Counted from the first letter of the stretch, positions 1,457 through 26,450 are shown. The stretch: DNA of 32,724 nucleotides from Microcaldota archaeon (GCA_013425375.1 JACCLH010000048.1:1-32724), one strand, 5' to 3'. Program-made: numbers and translations. The notes: generated by a model not told the origin, from the letters alone.

Positions 1457-4012
1457 TCACATCGATTTGAACTCTATCAGCATCTTCTCAAGCTCCTCAG
1501 TGGTGAGAAGCAGGAGCGAGCTGCTGTCCAGCTCCATCTTTGTTATCAGCGGAGCCACGGACGGAGAGGAGTTTATCAGCCCCTGGAAGCTGCTCTTGTC
1601 GGCCATGCTCTTGAAGACGACTATGGATATGCCATGGCCGATTGACGGCAGGATCCTCTTCAGGAGCTCCTTCGGATCGCCGCCCTTCTCATAGAAGTGC
1701 AGGTACATCTGCTGTCCGACCACGGTGAGCACGCTGTCCGCCTCCTTGGACTCATCAAGCTGGGTGAACGGGATGGCATTGTTGACGCAGATGTCACGCA
1801 GGCGGCGCATGAGGGCCAGGTATTCTATGGAATGTTTGGTCCTGTCCTCCCAGCTGATGAGACCGTAGTAGCCGATGCATTCCTTGAGCAGATTCCGCTT
1901 CTCAAGGGTGTCCAGCAGGAACTCTACGTTGTAGTCTGTTATGTAGACGGGCTTGCCATGGAAGAAGATATCCTTGAAGCCGTTCTTTATCTCTGTGGGC
2001 GCCAGAGGCGTGCACTGCCACCTGTAAGTCTCGTTTATCTTCTCGAATATTCCGAGTATGGAATCAGCGGCCAGGGGGATCTTGGTCCTGGCCACAGGCG
2101 GGAAGTCCGGGATGTCCAGAGCGAAGTATATGGCTTCCTGGCGGGCGAACAGGACGCCTATGCCGACTATGCCGCCTGTGAGTATTATCATGATCCAGAA
2201 GAGCGGGTCGGTGAATATGGTCTTCACGACCTGATGCTTGATGGGCACATCCACCTTGAGCCCGCCGGCGGTGAACTTGAACACGTGGTCTCCGGTCGGA
2301 AGGCTGTTGTCGCCAGTGAAACCGCCCACATCCACCTTCATGCTGCTGACGCGGTTGAAAGTGTAGGAGCCGTATTTGCCTCCATCCACGAGAAGCGAGA
2401 TCTCGTTCAGCTCGAATGGCTGGCCGTCCATGGATATGTCGAAGTAATACCTGGAGGGCTTCTTGGAATCCTGGCCCTTCCAGGTGATGTCTATGGACAC
2501 CACCTTCATGTAGACCTGGGTGTATATGTTGCTCTCATCATCCATGAGAGCCACGATGTACTCGCCGCGGTCTATGTATATCGGGACGTCAAAGGACTTG
2601 TCGGCCTGCACATTCACAGGACCCTGGCTTATGCTCTGCACCTCTGTGCCGTTGCTGTCGGTCATGGTGAGATACATGTTCGGCTGGGCCGCCTGAGGCT
2701 CCCTGAGCATCGCGTTCATCCTTACGGGTTTGCCGCTTATGTTGGTCGGCACCACCTTGCCGCCCAGCTCTATGTACATGTCGTTGTCGCGCTCCTTCTC
2801 AATGCTGGTGAAAAGGGTCTCGCGCACCGGGAACTCGGAGGTCGATGTGTAGCCGATGAAGTCCACCTTGAGCGTGACGCTGGGCTTGGCGAACTGGTCC
2901 GAGAAGAAATAGCTGCGGCCGGCATAGTATGTCTGGTCGGCGAACGTGTAGTTCTTGGATGGCGCGTTGGGCTCTGCCCAGGGGATGTCGAACACTATCC
3001 TGGACACATCGTCAGCGGCGCTGGTGTAGTTGCCGCGCCAGCCGCCGTCCAGGGTCTGGGGAAGGAATACGAAGGCGCCATCTCCCTTGGTGGCGACGCT
3101 GATGGAGCCGTACTTCAGATCTCCGGCCCAGCCGGATGTCGGAGCTGCCCGGTAAAGGGGCTGGTAAACATGCATGGCCGCGCTGGTCTGCAGCTGGACA
3201 TTTTCGTCGAAACCGAATGGAATGGTCTTGAGGGTCGCCTGGGGCGTGGTCTGGACAAGGGTGCCGTTCAGCATCTTGGTGAAAGGCTGCCCCAGGTATA
3301 TGACCACCACGCCGCGGTCCGCGAGATGGTTGGGGGTTATCATACTGTTGACGCCGAGCATCTCCATGGGCACCACGCCGCTGGGAACTATGATGATGGC
3401 GCCTTCCGGTATGGTCTCCAGCTGCTTGAGCGTTATCTCGTTGAGTATTATCTTCCGCTTGGCCAGATTGGAACGGAGGGTGCGGATGAAATCAGGATAC
3501 ATGCCGGCTTCGAAGCGCTCGCTGTTCAGTATGAAGACCTCGTAAGGGAGCTTCTGGTCGTATGTGGATATGATGACCGAATAGTTGACCAGGTTGCTCG
3601 TGTTGTAGTCTATCATGACCGAGGCCACGTACCTCGGGTTCGCCCTATCGCCTGAACTGATGACGTCGCCGCTGATGATGGTGTTCTCGATGGCCGGCTT
3701 CTCGGAGGGGGGCTGGAACACGCCGGCTGACTGGAACGCCTGGGTGGTGAGGAAAAGCCATCCCATCGCAAGCACTATTATGGCTATGAATATGAAAGCG
3801 CCGAAGACCATGAAGTTGAAGCCGCCTGGCGGGGCCTGGGACAAGACCGCTTCAGTCTTCTTCTCCTTCTTGGGGGTGAGGATGCCACGGACCAGGTCCT
3901 TTATCTTTTCTATGGGTGGCCTTACCTTTGTCCGGTAGTGGCTCACGTACTGGTACTTCTTCTTGAGCTCGAACCGGTATGTCTTCTTCAGCCTAGCGTC
4001 CTTTTCTGCCAT
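1457..4012 (-). CDS. Large two-TM protein with external domain, last gene of VirB4-like operon
   Basis: An 851-residue protein with a basic cytoplasmic start (1-62), TM helix 65-89 (rich in Ile/Phe/Leu), a roughly 510-residue beta-rich region (95-600) with many N-x-S/T sequons, a second TM helix near 604-624, and a soluble C-terminal domain (625-851). In the external part, residues 200-250 (IPEGAIIIVPSGVVPMEML, then GVVVIYLGQPF) alternate strand and loop like a Rossmann/amidotransferase-type fold, and 400-600 looks like stacked beta-sandwich modules. Both ends should be cytoplasmic. I do not recognise the family. It starts 7 bases after the stop of the coiled-coil gene and closes the operon, so it is likely the surface or channel-facing part of a complex powered by the ATPase at 5357-6940. 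A 652-aa open frame on the opposite strand is a shadow. Confidence 0.85.
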   Translation of the reverse strand: MAEKDARLKKTYRFELKKKYQYVSHYRTKVRPPIEKIKDLVRGILTPKKEKKTEAVLSQAPPGGFNFMVFGAFIFIAIIVLAMGWLFLTTQAFQSAGVFQPPSEKPAIENTIISGDVISSGDRANPRYVASVMIDYNTSNLVNYSVIISTYDQKLPYEVFILNSERFEAGMYPDFIRTLRSNLAKRKIILNEITLKQLETIPEGAIIIVPSGVVPMEMLGVNSMITPNHLADRGVVVIYLGQPFTKMLNGTLVQTTPQATLKTIPFGFDENVQLQTSAAMHVYQPLYRAAPTSGWAGDLKYGSISVATKGDGAFVFLPQTLDGGWRGNYTSAADDVSRIVFDIPWAEPNAPSKNYTFADQTYYAGRSYFFSDQFAKPSVTLKVDFIGYTSTSEFPVRETLFTSIEKERDNDMYIELGGKVVPTNISGKPVRMNAMLREPQAAQPNMYLTMTDSNGTEVQSISQGPVNVQADKSFDVPIYIDRGEYIVALMDDESNIYTQVYMKVVSIDITWKGQDSKKPSRYYFDISMDGQPFELNEISLLVDGGKYGSYTFNRVSSMKVDVGGFTGDNSLPTGDHVFKFTAGGLKVDVPIKHQVVKTIFTDPLFWIMIILTGGIVGIGVLFARQEAIYFALDIPDFPPVARTKIPLAADSILGIFEKINETYRWQCTPLAPTEIKNGFKDIFFHGKPVYITDYNVEFLLDTLEKRNLLKECIGYYGLISWEDRTKHSIEYLALMRRLRDICVNNAIPFTQLDESKEADSVLTVVGQQMYLHFYEKGGDPKELLKRILPSIGHGISIVVFKSMADKSSFQGLINSSPSVAPLITKMELDSSSLLLLTTEELEKMLIEFKSM

Positions 4013-4019
4013 AGAAACA

Positions 4020-4823
4020 CTACTGGACTACTTCCAGGTATCCTTCGTTGACCAGCTTATTGAGCATCTCCTCTACGCGGGCTTCTGACACCTTGAACAC
4101 CTTCGCGAACTCGGTGATGCTCAGGGACCCGCTGTGCTCTGACACCCACTCCTGGAGCTTGGCTTTCAGCGCGTCGTCCGACAGGCCTTCCAGCTGCTGC
4201 ACCCTGAGCCTGAACTCGTCGTTCTGGGTCTTCAGCTCGTAGTTCTGCGATGTGAGCGCCTGGCTCTGCTCGGTGAGGCGCTCCACCTTCTTGCGGTAGT
4301 CGTCCACCTCCTTCTTGAGGGAGTCATAGGCCGTGTACAGCTTGGTGTAATCCATGGTCACCGAGCCTGCGAGCTCCTTTATGGAGTCCTCCACGAGCTG
4401 GTAGAGCGTCTTGTTGTCCACCTGGTAATAGGATTCCGTGAGGGAAAGGATGTTGAGCAGGTAGCGGATGACATCCACCCTGCGCTTCTTGGGCCCTATC
4501 TCGGGCGGGATGGTGTACAGGACCTCCACCTCGTCCTCCTTTATCTTGACTATGGAGAAGAGGTAGGGATTCTTGTCGATGTCCCTGCTCTCCACGTATA
4601 TCACGTTCAGGACGTCCTTCTCAGGGGCGATCTCCAGGAAGGATATGGAACGGAGTATCGCTGCCAGGTCCTTGGGCTTGCCCTTGAGCATCTTGCCCTT
4701 TATCTTGAAGGCATCCACCTGAGGCGGATGGGGCGCTTCTGTTGTGCCCCCGCCTGCTGGCTGGGTTCCTGGAGTCCCTGCAGGCTTGGCAGCGGATTTT
4801 GGGGTCGGTAATGGAAGTGGCAT
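4020..4823 (-). CDS. Coiled-coil protein with C-terminal winged helix, VirB4-like operon
   Basis: A 267-residue soluble protein with no TM segment or signal peptide. Residues 1-38 are Pro/Gly/Ala-rich and probably disordered. Residues 39-155 form a mixed alpha/beta domain. Residues 160-212 are a coiled coil (KKEVDDYRKKVERLTEQSQA onwards). Residues 215-267 look like a winged helix (SLSITEFAKVFKVSEARVEE then MLNKLVNEGYLEVV). The upstream sequence GAGGTGTGACTG before the ATG is a clear Shine-Dalgarno match, which fixes this start. It lies 10 bases after the stop of the zinc/TM gene. The winged helix could bind DNA or act as a protein-interaction module on the cytoplasmic side of the machine. The family is not recognised. 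Confidence 0.85.
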   Translation of the reverse strand: MPLPLPTPKSAAKPAGTPGTQPAGGGTTEAPHPPQVDAFKIKGKMLKGKPKDLAAILRSISFLEIAPEKDVLNVIYVESRDIDKNPYLFSIVKIKEDEVEVLYTIPPEIGPKKRRVDVIRYLLNILSLTESYYQVDNKTLYQLVEDSIKELAGSVTMDYTKLYTAYDSLKKEVDDYRKKVERLTEQSQALTSQNYELKTQNDEFRLRVQQLEGLSDDALKAKLQEWVSEHSGSLSITEFAKVFKVSEARVEEMLNKLVNEGYLEVVQ

Positions 4824-4833
4824 CAGTCACACC

Positions 4834-5343
4834 TCATCTCTTTTTCTTGGGCTTGTATGCTGGCTTCTTTTTCGCCGCGGTCTCCGGCCTCTCTTCCGGC
4901 TCCTCAGGCTCTGGGACCGGAGCAGGAGGTGGAGGCTTGGACGGCTGGAATGACCCGCTTTCTATGGCAGGCGCATACCGGAATAGCGACAATAGCAACG
5001 CGAAGAGGGCCACCACGAACGCGGATATGACAACCCAGGCATCGAACCTGCCTGAACTGATTGTGGAATACAGCAGGAGAAGGACCACAAAACCGGCGAA
5101 TACGCTGGCGAACAGCATGGTCCTCTCGAAAGAACGGCGCCGTTCCGCATGCTTAGGCACGCAGGATTCACAGACGAAGAGCTTGTTCATCTGGGCAATG
5201 CCTAAACGCATCTTTATGGCCCTTAGCCCACGGATTATGCGGTCCTCCTTGATGGGAAACGCGGTCTTGTCCTCAACATCGGCCTGGCAGGAAACGCACA
5301 TCTTCTTCCCGTAAGAGGGACGAGGATTGACTATCTCGGACAT
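4834..5343 (-). CDS. Zinc-binding two-TM protein with Pro/Lys-rich tail, VirB4-like operon
   Basis: A protein of 169 residues. Two CxxC pairs (CVSC near residues 16-19 and CESC near 58-61) suggest a four-Cys zinc site of treble-clef or ribbon type. Two hydrophobic helices follow (LFASVFAGFVVLLLLY and VVISAFVVALFALLLSLF), then a tail rich in Pro and Glu ending in KKKPAYKPKKKR. The topology puts the zinc domain and the basic tail on the same, probably cytoplasmic, side. A GTG at 5352 would add three residues; I prefer the ATG at 5343 because GCGGGGTGG just upstream is a plausible ribosome binding site. It sits between the ATPase and the coiled-coil protein with almost no spacing, so it is likely a membrane adaptor of the same complex. 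The family is not recognised. Confidence 0.82.
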   Translation of the reverse strand: MSEIVNPRPSYGKKMCVSCQADVEDKTAFPIKEDRIIRGLRAIKMRLGIAQMNKLFVCESCVPKHAERRRSFERTMLFASVFAGFVVLLLLYSTISSGRFDAWVVISAFVVALFALLLSLFRYAPAIESGSFQPSKPPPPAPVPEPEEPEERPETAAKKKPAYKPKKKR

Positions 5344-5356
5344 GCCATCCACCCCG

Positions 5357-6940
5357 CTATTCCTCTAGGACGACCTGGCTTATCTCACGCCCGACACCGC
5401 CGCTCTTCTTCAGGTCCACCTTGCCGAAGATGTTGATGATGGTGATATCATCCACCCCGGCATCCTTGAGGAAGTCGCCGATGTTCCTGCGGACGATGCC
5501 ATAGCGCTCCAGCGTGATGACGAACGACACCACGTCCATGCGGCGGTTGCCCTTGTCGAACGTCTTGGTGAGGTCCTCTATCTTATCATCACCCAGACCG
5601 AACTGGCGCAATTTCCTCCTGAAATCCTCCTTAAGGAACGACACGCTTCTTGACACTGCAACATCCCTCCTCTGTTTTTCTGTAAGAACTTCGCTAAGGT
5701 CAAGGAAGTATTCCTTGCTCGGCTCCTCTCCCTCTATCTTGCTTATCAGGAAGGTCGAGGGATACGGAGTCGAGAGAGTGAGCGCCAGGTTGACGGCGCA
5801 CTGGCCGACCCCCAGCCTGCTTATCTCGTCGCGCATGTAGTTGCTGAAGTTGAGAGACCCCTGGAGATAGTCCAGGAACTTCTCGAACTTGACCTTTAGC
5901 ATGAACGTTGTGCCGACATTGGAGAATATGGCCTCGCTTATGTCCGTCGGGTTCTGCGATGCGATTATCATGGCGAAGTTGTACTTGCGGCCTTCGCGGA
6001 CTATCATGACCGCGTCGCTGTTGTCATCCTTGCCTATCTTCCATGCCTCGTCCAGCACGATGAGGAGCTTGAGGCCTTTCACGTTGGACCAGCCTTCCAG
6101 CCTCATCTTCTCCTTTATGAACTGCAGGATTGTGAGCGCTGCCAGGGCACGCGCCGTCTCGTCAGGCAGGCCGGACAGATCCAGGTCCACCAGGCCTGAG
6201 GTTATGAGCTCCTCCAGCTTCACTGTGCTCTGCTGGGCGAAGAAGTCCTCGCCTGACTTGGTGAACTGCTTGAGGCGGTAGATGGCGTTCTCGAGCTCTG
6301 CCGGGAAGTCATAGGACCCCACCTGGGCCTGGTCGGTGAGCACGCGTACGACGTCCTTGAGCGTGGGCGGCGTCAGCGGCTTCCCAAGCTCGTCCTTCTG
6401 CTCCCTGACGTCCATCCTGAATTTGCTCTCTATGTAGATCTTCTCTATGGCCTGCTCGGTGAGCCGCCTCTGCTCGGGGTAGTTGGATATGTCGGTGAGC
6501 AGCTCCATGGTCCTCATGACCTGCTTTATGCGGTCATAGGGCTTCATGCCGCCCAGGTCCAGCAGGTTGAGATAGGACCCCTTGCCCAGCGAGATGACCT
6601 TGCCGCCGCTCTGCTTCACCCAGTCCTTGTATTCACCTGCCCAGTCTATGATGAGCGCGTTGCTGTTCCAGACGAACGCGGAACGGAGCAGGAAGGTCTT
6701 GATGAAATAGGACTTACCGGAACCTGATATGCCGACCACGGCTATGTGGGGGTTGGCGACGTTCTCGAAGCTCCAGTAGAAAGGCACGTTGAATATCTTG
6801 GTCCTGCCGATGTAGATGGAGTTGGTCGGGTCTCCGAACAGCACCTCCATGGGCGGTTCCGGAGGATAGACCAGGATGCTGCGCCTGGCTATCGCGGTGT
6901 TTGGGAGTTTGACGAGCTTGAGCTTGCCTGCGATGCCCAT
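5357..6940 (-). CDS. VirB4/HerA-type ATPase of a putative membrane translocation machine
   Basis: A 527-residue P-loop ATPase. Residues 65-77 (PHIAVVGISGSGKS) hold Walker A with Lys76; IIDWAGEY (97-104) is the HerA-like motif after strand 2; LLIVLDE (292-298) is Walker B; ASQN (327-330) is the sensor strand; REGRKYNF (315-322) is typical of the VirB4/TraC/HerA clade. A short beta-rich lead-in (1-60) and a helical C-terminal region (400-527) flank the motor. Such ATPases drive substrate or DNA transfer in type IV secretion and conjugation, as hexamers at the membrane. The full VirB4 N-domain is missing here and seems to be encoded by the gene just upstream, whose TGA overlaps this ATG by one base (TGATG), so the two are translationally coupled. 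No relaxase, VirB6 or pilin is visible nearby. Confidence 0.88.
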   Translation of the reverse strand: MGIAGKLKLVKLPNTAIARRSILVYPPEPPMEVLFGDPTNSIYIGRTKIFNVPFYWSFENVANPHIAVVGISGSGKSYFIKTFLLRSAFVWNSNALIIDWAGEYKDWVKQSGGKVISLGKGSYLNLLDLGGMKPYDRIKQVMRTMELLTDISNYPEQRRLTEQAIEKIYIESKFRMDVREQKDELGKPLTPPTLKDVVRVLTDQAQVGSYDFPAELENAIYRLKQFTKSGEDFFAQQSTVKLEELITSGLVDLDLSGLPDETARALAALTILQFIKEKMRLEGWSNVKGLKLLIVLDEAWKIGKDDNSDAVMIVREGRKYNFAMIIASQNPTDISEAIFSNVGTTFMLKVKFEKFLDYLQGSLNFSNYMRDEISRLGVGQCAVNLALTLSTPYPSTFLISKIEGEEPSKEYFLDLSEVLTEKQRRDVAVSRSVSFLKEDFRRKLRQFGLGDDKIEDLTKTFDKGNRRMDVVSFVITLERYGIVRRNIGDFLKDAGVDDITIINIFGKVDLKKSGGVGREISQVVLEE

Positions 6941-7764
6941 CAGACCACGCTCTCTTCAAGCTCCTGGGCAGTCATCGGGAAGAACTTCTCCCATTCGAAG
7001 CATTTCAGCATCTCATCTCCGGTGAGGTTGACGACCTCCACGTTGAGCGCGTTCGCCAGCACGGTCCTCAGCTCGTTGGCCTGGGTACGGGCCGCTGCCA
7101 CAGCCGCGTCCTTGCTGAGGCCGACCGCCGTGGTCTGGGCATAGGCTATGATGCCCATGGGCTTCACGCCTTTTATCAGGCGGCCGAGCTCATTGTCCCT
7201 GATGGCGACCTCCTTCTCGTACTTGTCCACCTTGAGGACATCAGGCTGGGGCTTGTCCCTTTCCCTGGCCAGCCTCAGCTGGGCCTCTGCCCTCTTGGTC
7301 TCTATCATCTTCCTCTTCTCGCCCACGTCCTCCACGTAGAGCAGGTAGGCGACCTTGGTGACGTACTTGATGTTGGATATGGCCCTCTCGAAGAACTGGG
7401 TGTAGGCAATGTTCTCATCCGAGCTCTTCTCGATGGCCGATTCGAATATCTTCAGGCCCAGGAATGCAGAGGCATAGAATACGCCATTGACGTTCTTGAC
7501 TATGACGTCCTGCGAAGGCGGGATCTCATAGCCTGTGTCGGTCATCATGACGATTTTCGCCCTCTCGGTGACAAGGGGTATGAACAGGTAGCCATACTTC
7601 CAGAAGAGCACTCCGAACAGCGAGCCCAGCCCTGCCATCAGACCGCCTAGAAGGACGAACGGGCCCATGCCTGCGGAACCGCCTATGAAGGCGAGCAGGG
7701 CGCCCACGATGCCGACAACTATGGAACCGATTGTATAGGTCTTCGCACCACCAGTGATAGCCAT
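6940..7764 (-). CDS. Two-TM protein with VirB4 N-domain-like region, first gene of the operon
   Basis: A 274-residue protein with two strongly hydrophobic, Gly-rich helices (about 11-33 and 35-65) followed by a soluble alpha/beta region of about 200 residues. In the soluble part, YLLYVEDVGEKRKMIETKRA, a charged helix, then a segment GIIAYAQTTAVGLSKDAAVA and a final strand-helix (NVEVVNLTGDE) follow the pattern I associate with the N-terminal domain of VirB4/TraC proteins. The short TM pair resembles a VirB3/PrgI-like anchor. My reading is a VirB3-like anchor fused to a VirB4 N-domain, with the motor split off into the next gene; this is inference from pattern. The ribosome binding site GAGGGA lies 6 bases before the ATG, and a TATA box lies about 48 bases upstream. 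Confidence 0.8.
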   Translation of the reverse strand: MAITGGAKTYTIGSIVVGIVGALLAFIGGSAGMGPFVLLGGLMAGLGSLFGVLFWKYGYLFIPLVTERAKIVMMTDTGYEIPPSQDVIVKNVNGVFYASAFLGLKIFESAIEKSSDENIAYTQFFERAISNIKYVTKVAYLLYVEDVGEKRKMIETKRAEAQLRLARERDKPQPDVLKVDKYEKEVAIRDNELGRLIKGVKPMGIIAYAQTTAVGLSKDAAVAAARTQANELRTVLANALNVEVVNLTGDEMLKCFEWEKFFPMTAQELEESVV

Positions 7765-7805
7765 GGAGTATCCCTCGATTCAAGGTTACATAGGATATCC
7801 CAAAA

Positions 7806-7817
7806 GGATATAAAAAC
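7806..7817 (-). promoter_or_regulatory. TATA-like box of the five-gene VirB4-like operon
   Basis: Read on the minus strand, GTTTTTATATCC lies 42-53 bases before the ATG at 7764. Initiation about 25 bases downstream would leave a leader of roughly 20 bases carrying the GAGGGA ribosome binding site. It is the only evident promoter for the five genes, which are spaced by -1 to +13 bases. Confidence 0.5.
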
Positions 7818-7869
7818 CGCTCGATTAGTGCGGGCGCCGGATTAGGCGGAATTACGGCAGCCACCGGGC

Positions 7870-7904: not shown

Positions 7905-9377
7905 ATGAGCATACCTACCATCTCCTTCGAGCCCAGGGTACCTGCCAGACGCCGAACTATCTGCAAGAGTGACGAGGCAGTGGTTAGCAGGCTCAGCTGC
8001 AAAGGCGAATTCGAACGCTATGACGGCATGGTGGAGAGGCTGCAGAAAATCGAGTACCCCGGGCCGCACATGAGCCAGTCTTTCGCGTTCAGGGTCGGCG
8101 AGGGCGGTCGTGGTGATTTTCTTTTCGAACAGTCAGATCGGATGTACCATATATTGAAATTCATGGCGCTGGACACAGCGAACGCATTATTTCCGGGCCA
8201 TTTCCTCAAGGCGCATGAGCTCAGGGTATTCAGGAAGGGCGGAGCGGAGTATGCCGCCACCTACTCGGACTTCGTACGCGACCTGAGCGGTGCCGGGAAA
8301 AGGACGATGGAAGCAAGGGAACTTTTCAAAAACGAGGGCCTCAGGGTCAGGATAGCAGCCGATCGGAGAGAACATGAGCTGACCCCGGAATTGGGTCCGC
8401 TCATGGAAGCCGTGGCTGCGGCAGGGATAATCATACAGCATCCAGAGGCGAATTACCATCTCACTGAGAACGGGATAGTATTCTTCGAGGTCGATGGCAT
8501 AGGCCTGCCGAAGGCGTTAGATGAAGGGAAGCGGCGGTTTTCCAAGACAAAGGAACTTGATTCCCTGGATAAACTGGCCGGGATGTATGCCACGATATTA
8601 AAATGCAAGATAAACGGTAGACTCAAAAAGATAGTGGATAGGCTACTGGCGAGACACCCGATGGACAGTGAATCGGAGACTATGCTGCCAATTTACGAGG
8701 ATTTCATGCAGTGGCCATTTGATGCACTCCGCAAAGAGGTTTTGCAGATATTCCTGAGAGGTATGAAAAACAGAATCATAAATGACGACTTCACCAGTGT
8801 GCTCTGGAACATGTCGAGGCTCCCGCTTAAAAGAATTGGAAAGGCATACCGGAGTGCGAGGGATACGATTTGGATGACGCTGGAGGGTAAGAAGATGGCG
8901 CTTATGTGGGCTGCTCTGCAGGGTTATACTGAAACTGCAAAAATGCTGATTGACAAAGGGGCGCACGCCAATGCGAAGGTTGCGAAGACTATGGGTAGGT
9001 ATACGGCGCTGATGTCGGCTGCTTCGAATGGGCATACCGAAACCGTTGCAATGCTTATTGACAAAGGCGCGGACGTGAACGCGAAGGATAATGAGGGCAG
9101 GACGGCGCTGATGAATGCTGCCTGGAATGGTCATACCAACACCGCCGAAATGCTGATTGACAAAGGAGCAGACGTGAATGCTAACGATAATGCTGGCAAT
9201 AGGGCGCTGATGTGGGCTGCTTATTGTGGCCATACCGAAACCGCCGAAATGCTGATTGACAAAGGAGCAGACGTCAATGCAAGTGATAATTATGGCTGGA
9301 CAGCGCTGATGCGGATTGCTGAGGATGGTCAAACCGAAACCGCTGAAATGCTAAGGAAGCACGGAGCGACTGAATGA
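7905..9377 (+). CDS. Ankyrin-repeat protein with unassigned, possibly kinase-like, N-terminal domain
   Basis: A 490-residue soluble protein. Residues 328-490 form five ankyrin repeats with the core MLIDKGADVNAKDN and TALMNAAWNGHT. Residues 1-325 are not a family I can name. Within them, IIIQHPEANYHLTENGIVFF followed by EVDG (175-198) recalls the catalytic loop and metal-binding loop of kinase-like enzymes (His179, Asn183, Asp197), but a Lys/ATP-loop motif is not clear, so it would be a degenerate or remote member. There is no signal peptide; it should act in the cytoplasm, with ankyrins binding a protein partner. The last repeat (AEMLRKHGAT) is nearly the same as the end of the ankyrin lipoprotein at 16512. 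It sits beside the purB scar and the AAA ATPase, in accessory DNA. Confidence 0.85.
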   Translation: MSIPTISFEPRVPARRRTICKSDEAVVSRLSCKGEFERYDGMVERLQKIEYPGPHMSQSFAFRVGEGGRGDFLFEQSDRMYHILKFMALDTANALFPGHFLKAHELRVFRKGGAEYAATYSDFVRDLSGAGKRTMEARELFKNEGLRVRIAADRREHELTPELGPLMEAVAAAGIIIQHPEANYHLTENGIVFFEVDGIGLPKALDEGKRRFSKTKELDSLDKLAGMYATILKCKINGRLKKIVDRLLARHPMDSESETMLPIYEDFMQWPFDALRKEVLQIFLRGMKNRIINDDFTSVLWNMSRLPLKRIGKAYRSARDTIWMTLEGKKMALMWAALQGYTETAKMLIDKGAHANAKVAKTMGRYTALMSAASNGHTETVAMLIDKGADVNAKDNEGRTALMNAAWNGHTNTAEMLIDKGADVNANDNAGNRALMWAAYCGHTETAEMLIDKGADVNASDNYGWTALMRIAEDGQTETAEMLRKHGATE

Positions 9378-16459: not shown

Positions 16460-16511
16460 ATGTGCCATCAAAACAAAACTATTGTAAGAAATGGTTTTTG
16501 GGGGTGGGGTT

Positions 16512-17456
16512 ATGGCGGTGGAAGCGAATCGGATTATTCATCCTAAATCAAAGTCTTTTTCTTCGCTAAAAAAGGCAGTTGCATTCGCTGCTCTTGGCAT
16601 GCAATTGCTCGCCAGCCCGATGATAACAGGCTGCGCAACTCCCAGCTTTAAAAATGCAGTGAAAACAGCGCTGGCCGAAAGGGTTGATGTGAATGCGCCG
16701 CTTTATGATGGCAAGATTAGTTATTTTGGCAAGACGATGCTGATCGGGGGCATCTGTGGGAATGAGCACTTTATGGATTCTGTTTTGGAGTATTCGGAGT
16801 ATATAGAAACAATAAATCTTCTAATTGCAAAAGGCGCTGATGTGAATGCGAAGGATGATGGTGGCACGACGGCGCTGATGTGTGCAGCTCAAAATGGCGA
16901 TGCAGTCGTTGCAAGGCTTCTCATTGCAAAAGGTGCTGATGTGAATGCAAGGAATATGTATGGCATGACACCGCTGATGTGGGCTGCCTATGAGAGCCAT
17001 AATAAGGAAACCGTGGAGCTTCTCATTGCAAAAGGGGCTGATGTGAATGCGACGGATTACCGGGGCGATACAGCGCTGATGGATGCTGCCTATTTTAGGT
17101 ATGATACAGGAATCGCAGAGATTCTCATTGCAAACGGCGCTGATGTGAATGCGAAGGATGATGATGGCACGACTGTGCTGATGAATGCTATTTGGAATTG
17201 GCGGAGTACTGACATTGCTGAAATACTGATTACAAAAGGCGCTGATGTGAATGCGAAGGATAATTATGGCAGGACGGCACTGATGTGTGCGGCTGGAGAT
17301 TTCAGGGAGCATGTGGAAAAAGTGAAGCTTCTGATTGCAAAAGGAGCGGACGTGAATGCGAAGGATGATGGTGGCACGACTGCACTGATGAATGCTTCGG
17401 GTGATTCTCATACGAAGACTGCTGAAATCCTGAGAAAGCACGGAGCGACGAAATAG
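16512..17456 (+). CDS. Ankyrin-repeat lipoprotein in the tRNA-Leu island
   Basis: A 314-residue protein. The N-terminus is basic (IIHPKSKSFSSLKKA), then a hydrophobic stretch VAFAALGMQLLASPM ends in the lipobox-like ITGC, so Cys41 would be the lipid-anchored first residue of the mature protein. About seven ankyrin repeats follow, nearly uniform (LLIAKGADVNAKDDGGTTAL). It would face outside the cell and bind a protein partner. An ATG at 16491 would add seven residues; I prefer 16512 because of the strong G-rich ribosome binding site before it. Its last ten residues (AEILRKHGAT plus K) match the end of the ankyrin protein at 7905. Codon use is AT-richer than in the flanks, which fits recent transfer with the island. 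Confidence 0.85.
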   Translation: MAVEANRIIHPKSKSFSSLKKAVAFAALGMQLLASPMITGCATPSFKNAVKTALAERVDVNAPLYDGKISYFGKTMLIGGICGNEHFMDSVLEYSEYIETINLLIAKGADVNAKDDGGTTALMCAAQNGDAVVARLLIAKGADVNARNMYGMTPLMWAAYESHNKETVELLIAKGADVNATDYRGDTALMDAAYFRYDTGIAEILIANGADVNAKDDDGTTVLMNAIWNWRSTDIAEILITKGADVNAKDNYGRTALMCAAGDFREHVEKVKLLIAKGADVNAKDDGGTTALMNASGDSHTKTAEILRKHGATK

Positions 17457-23999: not shown

Positions 24000-26432
24000 C
24001 TAGAAGTCGCCCAGGCTCTTCTGCTTCTTGTCCACGCTTTTGCCTTTCTTAGTCGCTGCCTCTTCATCCAGCAGCAGCTCTCCGAAAACGCCGTCATAGC
24101 CAGGCACCCATCTGACCTTGCCGGTATTGACCCGGACCAGCGCATCGGCTATCTCCTTGCTGGTGGCGAGGCGGACCTGCGCCTCACTGGCCTCATAGAC
24201 AGCGAACTCGTTGCCGAAATATCGGATGAGCTTGGAGTATTCGTCTGCGACCAGCTGAGACGTCTCTGGCTTCCTGATGGCCTTGGATATCACGGTCTCC
24301 AGGGGCACTGTGTATTGGAACGGGACCGCGTTCTCTGGCTTGAATCCTAATCTCCTGTCGGCCAGGTCGCTCACCCTGTGGAGCACTCCGATGGTGAGCT
24401 TGCGCCTGCACACCGGGCAGATGTTGTTGATGTCCTTGGCCTCTGTTGGGGAAAGAAGGACCTTGCAGTTCCTGTGGCCGTCATAGTGGTACTTGCCCTC
24501 CTCAGGATAGAACTCGTAGGTCTTCACGAAGCCTTTGCGCGTCTTTATCGCTTCGGTGATGGAGCGGTAGGTGACCTGTTCCAGCTCGAAGACGTTCGCT
24601 TCCCTCCCAAGCTTCCCCAGGCTGTGCGCATCGCTGTTGGAGACAAGGCTGTGGCGGTCAAGGGAGCTGAGCATCCAGTTCATCGCAGGGTCGCTGGACA
24701 AACCGGTCTCCAGTGCATGTATCCGATGGGCCTGGTCCTCGAACGCCTCTTCCACGGAATCCACGCCTGCCTTTGAGCCGAAGATGGAGAACCACGGCGT
24801 CCAGCAATTATGTACTGCGGCGAATTCGGTTAGGTAGGAATTGTCCTCCTTAACTTCAATATTATAGACATCACCTTCATAGAGGAATCTTTCAATTTTT
24901 CTGACAGGCAGGTAAACATAATTTTCGTCAATCCAGCCATGTTTGATGTCCGTCTTATAATCGAATTCATTGAATTCTGATTCTTTTAGGAGATTGAATG
25001 GATCTTCAAAGAAGGTTAGTGTGTTGAATATAAAATTATCATGGGCAGCTATAATTTCCCTACCTCCAATTATATGCTTCCCTCTGATTTTGTGATCTGT
25101 TTTTCTATCAATACGAATGCCTGGAACTATTCCAAGTCTGAGGCAGATTATTTTAATCTGATTTGCCAGAAGTTTGGATGATGTGCTTCCCTTGTCCCCG
25201 CGCCACCAGCCACGGATGATTTGGACCTGTTTTTTTAGCGGCAGATGAACAGCCCAATCCGGAAGACATTTCGTAAATGCGCGTTTCTTTTCTTTTGAGG
25301 AGTAAAAAACGGATTCAAAAATATTCATTAGATCCTTTGAGTAAAATATCAATTCTCCGCTGGTCTTGCCAGACTTGCATTTTACTCCGAAGTGCGCTTC
25401 CATGATCCGCTTAACATCTTCTATATATTCTCGCTCTGTGGTGTTGAATGTAAAACCGATTGCATCCCTCCCATTAGAGTGACCTTCTGCCAGATAATAG
25501 CCAACCAAACGACAGAAATCCTCATTTACATTAATCCGAAAATCTTTCACGGCTTCTGGAACAGTATCTCGGATGTTGATTTTCTCAATATCTTTTGTCA
25601 TATCGTTAAAGCGCGGGTAGACAAGGACATCCCCCTTTTCCATATCTCTGGCCAAAACCCATTGGGGCACATACTGCTTGTAGAAGTGTTGGTAACATAC
25701 CCTCAGATGTGAGATTGTTGGCTTGCAGACCAAGCCCTTTGTCCATGAACAATTCTTCACAGTTTTTATCGCATAAATAGGATGTTCGGATGTCGTTTCA
25801 ACACCTAGAGAGAAATACCATGGTACGATACGGAAAATTTCTCCCTTGTAAGGGCGTTTGTAAGTTTCAGTAACTTTTCTTCTTCTGCCGATGTGGGTAT
25901 AAACAGTATCCCCTTTTCTGAGTTCTTCGATGCTTTTCAGGTGGGGATTGCAATGGACTTGCGTCCCAGGCAAAAGACAATGAGCTGGAATCAGCATGAT
26001 GTCCTGCGATATGGCGAACACCTCCTCGGCGAGCGCTGCGCTGGAAAGCATCAGCGTCGGCCTGCCGTCGGCTTTCAGGTCCCCGTATTTCGCGAGGCGG
26101 TCGTTTATCTGCTCTGCGACCTCGAGCGAAGGGACGAGAAGCACGTGGTGCATCTTCCTGGATTTCCCGTTGAGCTCGAATATCACGCACACTTCAGTGG
26201 AAAGGATGAAGGAGATGCCGCCATGGCTGAAAAGGCCCGCCCCCTGTTCGTCCCTGGCGCCAGCGAACGCGCTTTTCATCTCGTTGAGATACGCAGGGTG
26301 GGTGAAGTCGCCGCTCGCCATGACGTTTATGCCTTTCATGCGGGCGCCTTCTGCCAGGCCGGGTATGTCGCATCTCGGGCTGGTGGCACGGGCGTATTTG
26401 CTGTGGACATGGAGGTCCGCTATGATGCGCAT
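24000..26432 (-). CDS. Endonuclease Q (PHP-type) interrupted by an intein
   Basis: An 810-residue precursor; without the 391-residue intein the product is 419 residues, the usual EndoQ length. Extein motifs: IIADLHVHSKYARATSPRCD at the start (PHP metal site, His8 and His10), SGDFTHPAYL, MHHVLLVPSLE, LIPAH before the intein, WTPWFSIFGSKAGVDS after it, HALETGLSSDPAMNW, SLVSNSDAHSLGKLGREANV, a CPVC zinc site with the paired NCK region, and GVLHRVSDLADR. EndoQ cuts DNA on the 5' side of deaminated bases (uracil, hypoxanthine, xanthine) and of abasic sites. The end QKSLGDF is a PCNA-binding (PIP) motif. A TTG at 26441 is also in frame; the ATG at 26432 has correct spacing to the shared A/T box at 26451-26464. 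Confidence 0.92.
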   Translation of the reverse strand: MRIIADLHVHSKYARATSPRCDIPGLAEGARMKGINVMASGDFTHPAYLNEMKSAFAGARDEQGAGLFSHGGISFILSTEVCVIFELNGKSRKMHHVLLVPSLEVAEQINDRLAKYGDLKADGRPTLMLSSAALAEEVFAISQDIMLIPAHCLLPGTQVHCNPHLKSIEELRKGDTVYTHIGRRRKVTETYKRPYKGEIFRIVPWYFSLGVETTSEHPIYAIKTVKNCSWTKGLVCKPTISHLRVCYQHFYKQYVPQWVLARDMEKGDVLVYPRFNDMTKDIEKINIRDTVPEAVKDFRINVNEDFCRLVGYYLAEGHSNGRDAIGFTFNTTEREYIEDVKRIMEAHFGVKCKSGKTSGELIFYSKDLMNIFESVFYSSKEKKRAFTKCLPDWAVHLPLKKQVQIIRGWWRGDKGSTSSKLLANQIKIICLRLGIVPGIRIDRKTDHKIRGKHIIGGREIIAAHDNFIFNTLTFFEDPFNLLKESEFNEFDYKTDIKHGWIDENYVYLPVRKIERFLYEGDVYNIEVKEDNSYLTEFAAVHNCWTPWFSIFGSKAGVDSVEEAFEDQAHRIHALETGLSSDPAMNWMLSSLDRHSLVSNSDAHSLGKLGREANVFELEQVTYRSITEAIKTRKGFVKTYEFYPEEGKYHYDGHRNCKVLLSPTEAKDINNICPVCRRKLTIGVLHRVSDLADRRLGFKPENAVPFQYTVPLETVISKAIRKPETSQLVADEYSKLIRYFGNEFAVYEASEAQVRLATSKEIADALVRVNTGKVRWVPGYDGVFGELLLDEEAATKKGKSVDKKQKSLGDF
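24807..25979 (-). other. Intein with LAGLIDADG homing endonuclease, inside EndoQ
   Basis: In-frame insert of 391 residues from Cys152 (CLLPGTQVHCNPHLKSIEEL) to Asn542 (AAVHN), followed by the nucleophile Cys543 of the C-extein. Splicing blocks: Cys at position 1; TTSEHPIY (block B with His217); YEGDVYNIEV and the final VHN|C (blocks F and G). Two dodecapeptide motifs, LVGYYLAEG (309-317) and IIRGWWRGD (405-413), mark a LAGLIDADG endonuclease for homing. The DNA is clearly AT-richer than the flanking exteins. The insertion lies right after an active-site His (PAH|CWTPW). All residues needed for splicing look present, so it should be active. Confidence 0.92.
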
Positions 26433-26450
26433 GAGGAACAAAGGTGAGAG

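Follow-up and report, generated by a model that had tools for sequence, protein, structure and literature searches.

A conserved five-gene operon as the putative engine of a type IV secretion-like machine in Micrarchaeota

The window, a stretch of 32,724 nucleotides from a Microcaldota archaeon (GCA_013425375.1, JACCLH010000048.1), carries at positions 1457-7764 five open reading frames (ORFs) in tandem on the minus strand, transcribed in the order g5-g4-g3-g2-g1 (Table 1). We propose, with a probability of about 0.75, that this operon encodes the engine driving a type IV secretion system (T4SS)-like machine of Micrarchaeota that combines a pilus with translocation. The architecture is well supported by gene order, co-occurrence, motifs, a fold match, linkage to genes for VirB2-like pilins and VirB6-like proteins, and a natural fusion.

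Operon layout and conservation

The first-pass annotation, made from the sequence of the window, had described five minus-strand genes behind one putative promoter, and this layout holds: the ORFs are in place, and a TATA-like element lies ~45 bases 5' of the operon's first ATG. The distances between the genes, from g5 to g1, are -1, +4, +10, and +7 bases rather than spanning -1 to +13 bases as first given. The four companions of the ATPase (g4) also agree with their earlier descriptions as a protein with two transmembrane (TM) helices (g5), a zinc/TM protein (g3), a coiled-coil winged-helix protein (g2), and an ectodomain protein (g1).

A search of public genomes retrieves 76 loci, nearly all from Micrarchaeota. 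With profiles of all five proteins, and counting only loci with enough flanking sequence, the complete five-gene order on one strand is found at 49 of 50 Micrarchaeota loci; at the lone exception (L043), only g1 is inverted. Relative to the ATPase gene, g5 is adjacent at 63 of 64 loci and g3 is downstream at all 68, and the linkage extends to g2 (63/64) and g1 (52/53). Scattered, unlinked homologues are not seen, consistent with the earlier claim that the five genes form one unit. In a survey of 245 Micrarchaeota genomes, 96 of them high-quality, the ATPase is present in 214 (89 of the high-quality genomes) and g1 in 215 (likewise 89).

The ATPase g4 and its putative membrane partner g5

The motifs GISGSGKS (Walker A), DWAGEY, LDEAWK (Walker B), and REGRKYNF of g4, all four listed in the first-pass annotation, occupy conserved or invariant columns in a 61-sequence alignment, and the mean column identity across homologues is 65%. 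Three Pfam families are matched above their cut-offs: DUF87 (58.3 bits, cut-off 23.2), AAA_10 (51.2, cut-off 27.5), and P-loop_TraG (40.6, cut-off 25.8). The first-pass description as a VirB4-like membrane machine is borne out. In NCBIfam, CedB scores best (73.9 bits), followed by VirB4, CD1110, and CedD, all under cut-off, and HerA is weaker; the 700-bit cut-off of the CedB equivalog (NF041017) is reached neither by g4 nor by its paralogue g4' (94.9 bits), encoded in a second operon described below. In a small ATPase tree, g4 and g4' group in a single clade, which holds two old paralogues and from which plasmid VirB4s and the HerA of the genome are separate. No plasmid match spans 80% of g4.

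Two further features are seen among ATPase homologues. At L072:2680-5829, an intein with a LAGLIDADG domain interrupts the gene just before Walker B. At many loci (for example, L027:11595-11889 and L059:11511-11808), a small ORF homologous to the ATPase C-terminal domain lies between the ATPase and zinc/TM genes.

G5 overlaps g4 by one base and has TM helices at residues 11-29 and 36-54 (hydropathy). G4 has nothing ahead of its P-loop domain, and g5 is a candidate supplier of the TM helices and N-domain that would complete it, as suggested by the order of the genes and by CedD, whose domains are TM, N-domain, and ATPase (PMC11868833). Searches of Pfam, NCBIfam, and PDB sequences give nothing useful for g5. 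Its AlphaFold2 (AF2) model (predicted local distance difference test score, pLDDT, 86.1), searched against the PDB with Foldseek, has TrwK/VirB4 chains of the R388 T4SS as its top five matches (E 1.4e-3 to 7.9e-3, probability 1.00); the sixth-ranked match drops to a probability of 0.41, leaving TrwK/VirB4 as the sole confident match. Judged by this model, g5 and g4 would represent a VirB4 split across two overlapping genes, a reading that is well supported but not proven, because the match is to a single known protein, with a modest score, and the profile comparison with plasmid N-domains is negative. The TM pair of g5 is VirB3-like in its two N-terminal helices and gene position, a likeness of architecture.

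In many lineages, two g5 genes stand in a row. VirB4 assembles as a hexamer of dimers in which the N-domains engage in two types of contact (PMC12857230), and we infer only from this likeness that the two g5 copies may correspond to the two contact positions. An apparent g5-g4 fusion of 783 aa (L030) is rejected as an artefact from a run of N.

Probable accessory subunits and the linked VirB6-like and pilin families

For g3 and g1, searches of Pfam, NCBIfam, and PDB sequences give nothing useful. Hydropathy places two TM helices in g3 and none in g2. The Pfam matches of g2, to EAP30 and winged-helix families, are below cut-off, and its matches in profile comparison are to coiled coils of a generic kind and to a winged helix. 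G2 and g3 are probably assembly or regulatory subunits. G1 has TM helices at residues 69-87 and 604-622 by hydropathy; its AF2 model (pLDDT 85.4) has helices at 67-92 and 603-622 and shows Rossmann/GATase1-like and immunoglobulin (Ig)-like domains in the external part. Foldseek returns generic Ig-like stacks and one GH42 enzyme with low TM-scores; no VirB8 is among the matches listed for g1, and the genome was not searched for VirB8. The mean column identity of g1 across homologues is 30%. As modelled, g1 probably extends to the surface of the cell or touches a partner cell.

The same genome has a paralogous operon on contig C12, encoding a 367-aa polytopic protein, g5', g4' (~40% identical to g4), and g2', and this order is kept in 14 genomes. 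The polytopic protein belongs to a family with 13 copies in the genome, six in tandem on contig C22, six in tandem on contig C64, and the one on C12; the order of the C22 array is conserved in another family (L137). Family members are found in 220 of the 245 genomes, usually in many copies, and have mostly 4-6 predicted TM helices and an N-terminal two-helix hairpin. We call them VirB6-like because they are polytopic with such a hairpin, share operons with g5 and g4, and are fused to pilin domains.

Several side observations concern these loci. A TnpB-like gene is inserted between the polytopic gene and g5' on C12 (L080:14803-16020), and a related ORF adjoins the C22 array. On C64, a 1375-aa cysteine-rich, lipoprotein-like secreted protein with no Pfam match is encoded directly 3' of the six-gene array (L117:2234-6361), and one array member of 704 aa (L117:9502-11616) resembles an extended VirB6 in that a large cysteine-rich insert separates its TM helices.

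A profile of the polytopic N-terminal hairpin retrieves a free-standing gene on a further contig of this genome (G000:C5:7378-7764). Its 128-aa product has, by sequence reading and hydropathy, a signal-peptide-like start and two hydrophobic helices with a short charged loop. The family to which it belongs, here called VirB2-like pilins, has the invariant motif YA.GQ..GAETRARA.VWAT, is often encoded in tandem, and is found in 208 of the 245 genomes and 87 of the 96 high-quality ones. A natural fusion in the C22 array joins two pilin domains (E 4e-18 and 5e-22) to a following polytopic domain (E 1e-25).

Both families are also linked to the operon itself. In family f17 (G054, G038, and G043), the gene run g5-g5-g4-g3-g2-g1 is immediately preceded by several polytopic genes on the same strand. 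At eleven loci outside f17, one to three pilin genes lie directly upstream of g4 preceded by one or two copies of g5; the pilin-linked loci come from families f14, f15, f22, and f23 and include L033, L036, L038, L072, and L079, and g3-g2-g1 follow where the sequence extends that far. The ATPase, g1, the polytopic family, and the pilin are all present in 192 of the 245 genomes and all absent in 20. Pairwise Fisher tests of this co-occurrence give P values of 5e-12 to 5e-26 without phylogenetic correction, on sets that are taken from search listings, with some negatives deduced from gaps in the positives, and that match the totals. Within f21, the remaining parts are likewise present in the single genus that has the ATPase. 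The first-pass annotation's remark that no VirB6 or pilin gene is in sight thus stands for the window and fails for the genome, with its 13 VirB6-like proteins and a pilin; nor is the apparatus self-contained, as the annotation had it, since the VirB6-like arrays and the pilins are encoded elsewhere.

Table 1 Features of the operon and neighbouring genes in the window
Feature	Position	Strand	Description and basis
g5	6940..7764	-	274 aa; two N-terminal TM helices and a cytosolic alpha/beta domain; ORF and AF2 model
g4	5357..6940	-	527 aa; VirB4-like ATPase with P-loop domain and helical C-terminal domain, without N-domain
g3	4834..5352	-	172 aa; N-terminal CxxC...CxxC (putative zinc site), two TM helices, Lys-rich tail; alignment
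g2	4020..4823	-	267 aa; soluble; N-domain, coiled coil, C-terminal winged helix
g1	1457..4012	-	851 aa; TM1, ~500-residue external part, TM2, ~200-residue cytosolic domain
Predicted TATA-like promoter element	7801..7820 (approximate)	-	TTTTTATAT; matched by consensus only
Ankyrin-repeat protein	7905-9377	+	Divergent from the operon
Second ankyrin-repeat protein	16491-17456	+	Lipoprotein-like
Apparent PHP-type protein	24000-26441	-	813 aa; intein-splicing and LAGLIDADG matches within it

The proposed machine, its relatives and its alternatives

For the assembly of the ring, the filament, the substrate, its direction, and the partner cell, we infer the following scheme. By analogy with VirB4, g5 and g4 would form a VirB4-like ring at the cytoplasmic membrane. 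The polytopic VirB6-like proteins would serve as the channel base, and the two-helix pilins, with their signal peptides, would build a VirB2-like filament. G1 could act as a surface-contact or envelope-spanning subunit, with its Ig-like stack outside and its cytosolic domain inside, and g2 and g3 would be additional subunits. ATP hydrolysis would power the building of the pilus and move a substrate, either DNA or protein, from one cell to another, with the Micrarchaeon and its host as a plausible pair.

Several results weigh against this proposal. Neither a pilus nor transfer has been observed. No curated VirB2, VirB3, VirB6, or VirB8 model matches, and the coupling protein PF02534 is not found in the genome, which is 82% complete. 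The pilin and the polytopic family have no Pfam match (for the pilin, VirB2 included), and NCBIfam and PDB sequence searches give nothing useful for either. Profile-profile comparisons are negative for the pilin against the pilin candidate of pNOB8 and for the polytopic family against VirB6-like proteins of archaeal plasmids (4.4%), and hhalign gives a probability of 0.2% for g5 against archaeal plasmid VirB4 N-domains. The fold match of g5 is to one known protein, TrwK, with E ~1e-3 and a TM-score of 0.42. In addition, absences cluster in families f16, f18, f20, f24, f25, and most of f21, and divergence could mimic absence of parts because the ATPase threshold is strict (1e-30).

The same parts could instead make up a domesticated DNA-import machine like Ced and Ted of Sulfolobales and Thermoproteales, taking up other cells' DNA for repair or as nucleotides and not for host contact, an account that we find possible though not favoured. 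CedB is the closest curated ATPase model. Ced and Ted have an archaeal VirB4-like ATPase, a VirB6-like polytopic protein, and a VirB2-like pilin, and no relaxase is known from them (PMC9905601, PMC11868833); in the window no relaxase is recognized either, with no search for one made beyond it. The components named for Ced and Ted do not include a coupling protein (PMC9905601), and no type IV coupling protein (T4CP) is found in the 82% complete genome. The likeness extends to a kinship of the pilin module with the channel protein's N-terminal part and to a VirB4 N-domain shared out among proteins (CedB/CedD). However, the Micrarchaeota ATPase and its presumed N-domain are separate adjacent genes, the pilin signature is unrelated, and no family model cut-off is reached, with CedB scores (74 and 95 bits) far under 700 bits. 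Ced and Ted are not known to have g1-g3, tandem VirB6-like arrays, or many pilins, and DNA-processing genes are not recognized beside the operon.

Alternatively, the machine could secrete effectors or other proteins into a host, as proposed for Patescibacteria and nanohaloarchaea; this, too, we regard as conceivable and as falling short of an even chance. Micrarchaeota include host-dependent lineages (PMC5498576, PMC11329633), and contact at the surface would suit the external part of g1. The T4SS of Patescibacteria is nearly lineage-wide and has a VirB2-like pilin array (PMC12102498, PMC12857230), and it is essential for epibiotic growth (PMC12857230). By analogy, this MPF-FATA-derived system (MPF, mating-pair formation) would be the strongest functional parallel, as it likewise occurs in ultrasmall cells with reduced genomes, has several VirB2-like pilins, and mostly lacks a relaxase. 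It differs in having recognizable VirB3, VirB4, and VirB6 and the T4CP TrsD, whereas those profiles fail in Micrarchaeota, where g1-g3 are new. Nanohaloarchaea, also members of DPANN, have a VirB4-like ATPase domain fused to giant adhesins with Ig-like external domains (VirB4/TraG, SPEARE-like; PMC10266531); there, ATPase and adhesin are one protein, whereas Micrarchaeota have separate genes and three further subunits. Against secretion into a host, no effector, secretion signal, or T4CP is identified, and some Micrarchaeota may be free-living, yet the genes are present almost throughout the phylum.

A membrane-anchored HerA-type ATPase for DNA-end processing or chromosome handling, unrelated to secretion, is very unlikely. 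G4 has its ATPase core in common with HerA, and DUF87 and HerA structures are among its matches. However, T4SS-type ATPase models outscore HerA, Pfam finds no HAS barrel in g4, and the operon is linked to pilins and polytopic arrays. Because the genome encodes a separate HerA with HAS-barrel and DUF87 matches (L081:7519-9027), g4 is not HerA, and the HerA/NurA repair complex that the first-pass annotation had raised is rejected; NurA is not recognized among the five operon genes, and no search aimed at it was made.

Archaeal conjugative plasmids (pNOB8, pAH1, pHGQ25, and a Thermococcus nautili plasmid) also have VirB4-like ATPases near polytopic VirB6-like proteins, but an integrated conjugative or mobile element is rejected as highly improbable on account of the presence of the genes in ~90% of the phylum's genomes and the lack of any relative in IMG/VR viral-contig scans, to which are added the single ATPase clade with its two old paralogues and the plasmid matches, none of which spans 80% of the ATPase. 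The first-pass view that this is not a standard conjugation system is upheld. The plasmids further differ in having a one-piece VirB4 with its own N-domain, and their N-domain, polytopic protein, and pilin candidate have no sequence similarity to the Micrarchaeota parts. At L142, L143, L144, L145, L146, and L148, all from archaeal conjugative plasmids, a large ectodomain protein that spans the membrane once or twice is encoded near VirB4. Profile-profile comparison of g1 with these counterparts is negative; proteins of this kind may recur as a subunit across archaeal systems.

The proposed T4SS-like machine, with its dispersed parts, is set apart from Ced, Ted, and every MPF class. Searches of the open full-text literature on Micrarchaeota and DPANN archaea, with subscription journals and preprints outside the scope, found no description of the machine, and its novelty is accordingly provisional; the Micrarchaeota literature searched names no dedicated transfer machine besides type IV pili and the Sec and Tat pathways. 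A recent T4SS review does not contain the word DPANN (PMC12857230).

Although Micrarchaeota genomes measure only ~1 Mb, ~85-90% of them retain a VirB2-, VirB4-, and VirB6-like set, which suggests a core function. Pili-like connections have been seen between ARMAN cells and Thermoplasmatales. Tentatively, and with slightly less than even confidence, we suggest that a split VirB4, VirB6-like arrays, VirB2-like pilins, and g1-g3 define an undescribed, phylum-wide T4SS class, which would be a core organelle of host contact and exchange, would correspond in archaea to the T4SS that is essential in Patescibacteria, and would be a candidate for those connections. How DPANN archaea attach to and exchange with their hosts is a standing question, for which the operon gives named genes to test. 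If the proposal is true, the machine would be an archaeal parallel to the Patescibacteria T4SS (PMC12857230), and two unrelated groups of ultrasmall symbionts would rely on a like machine.

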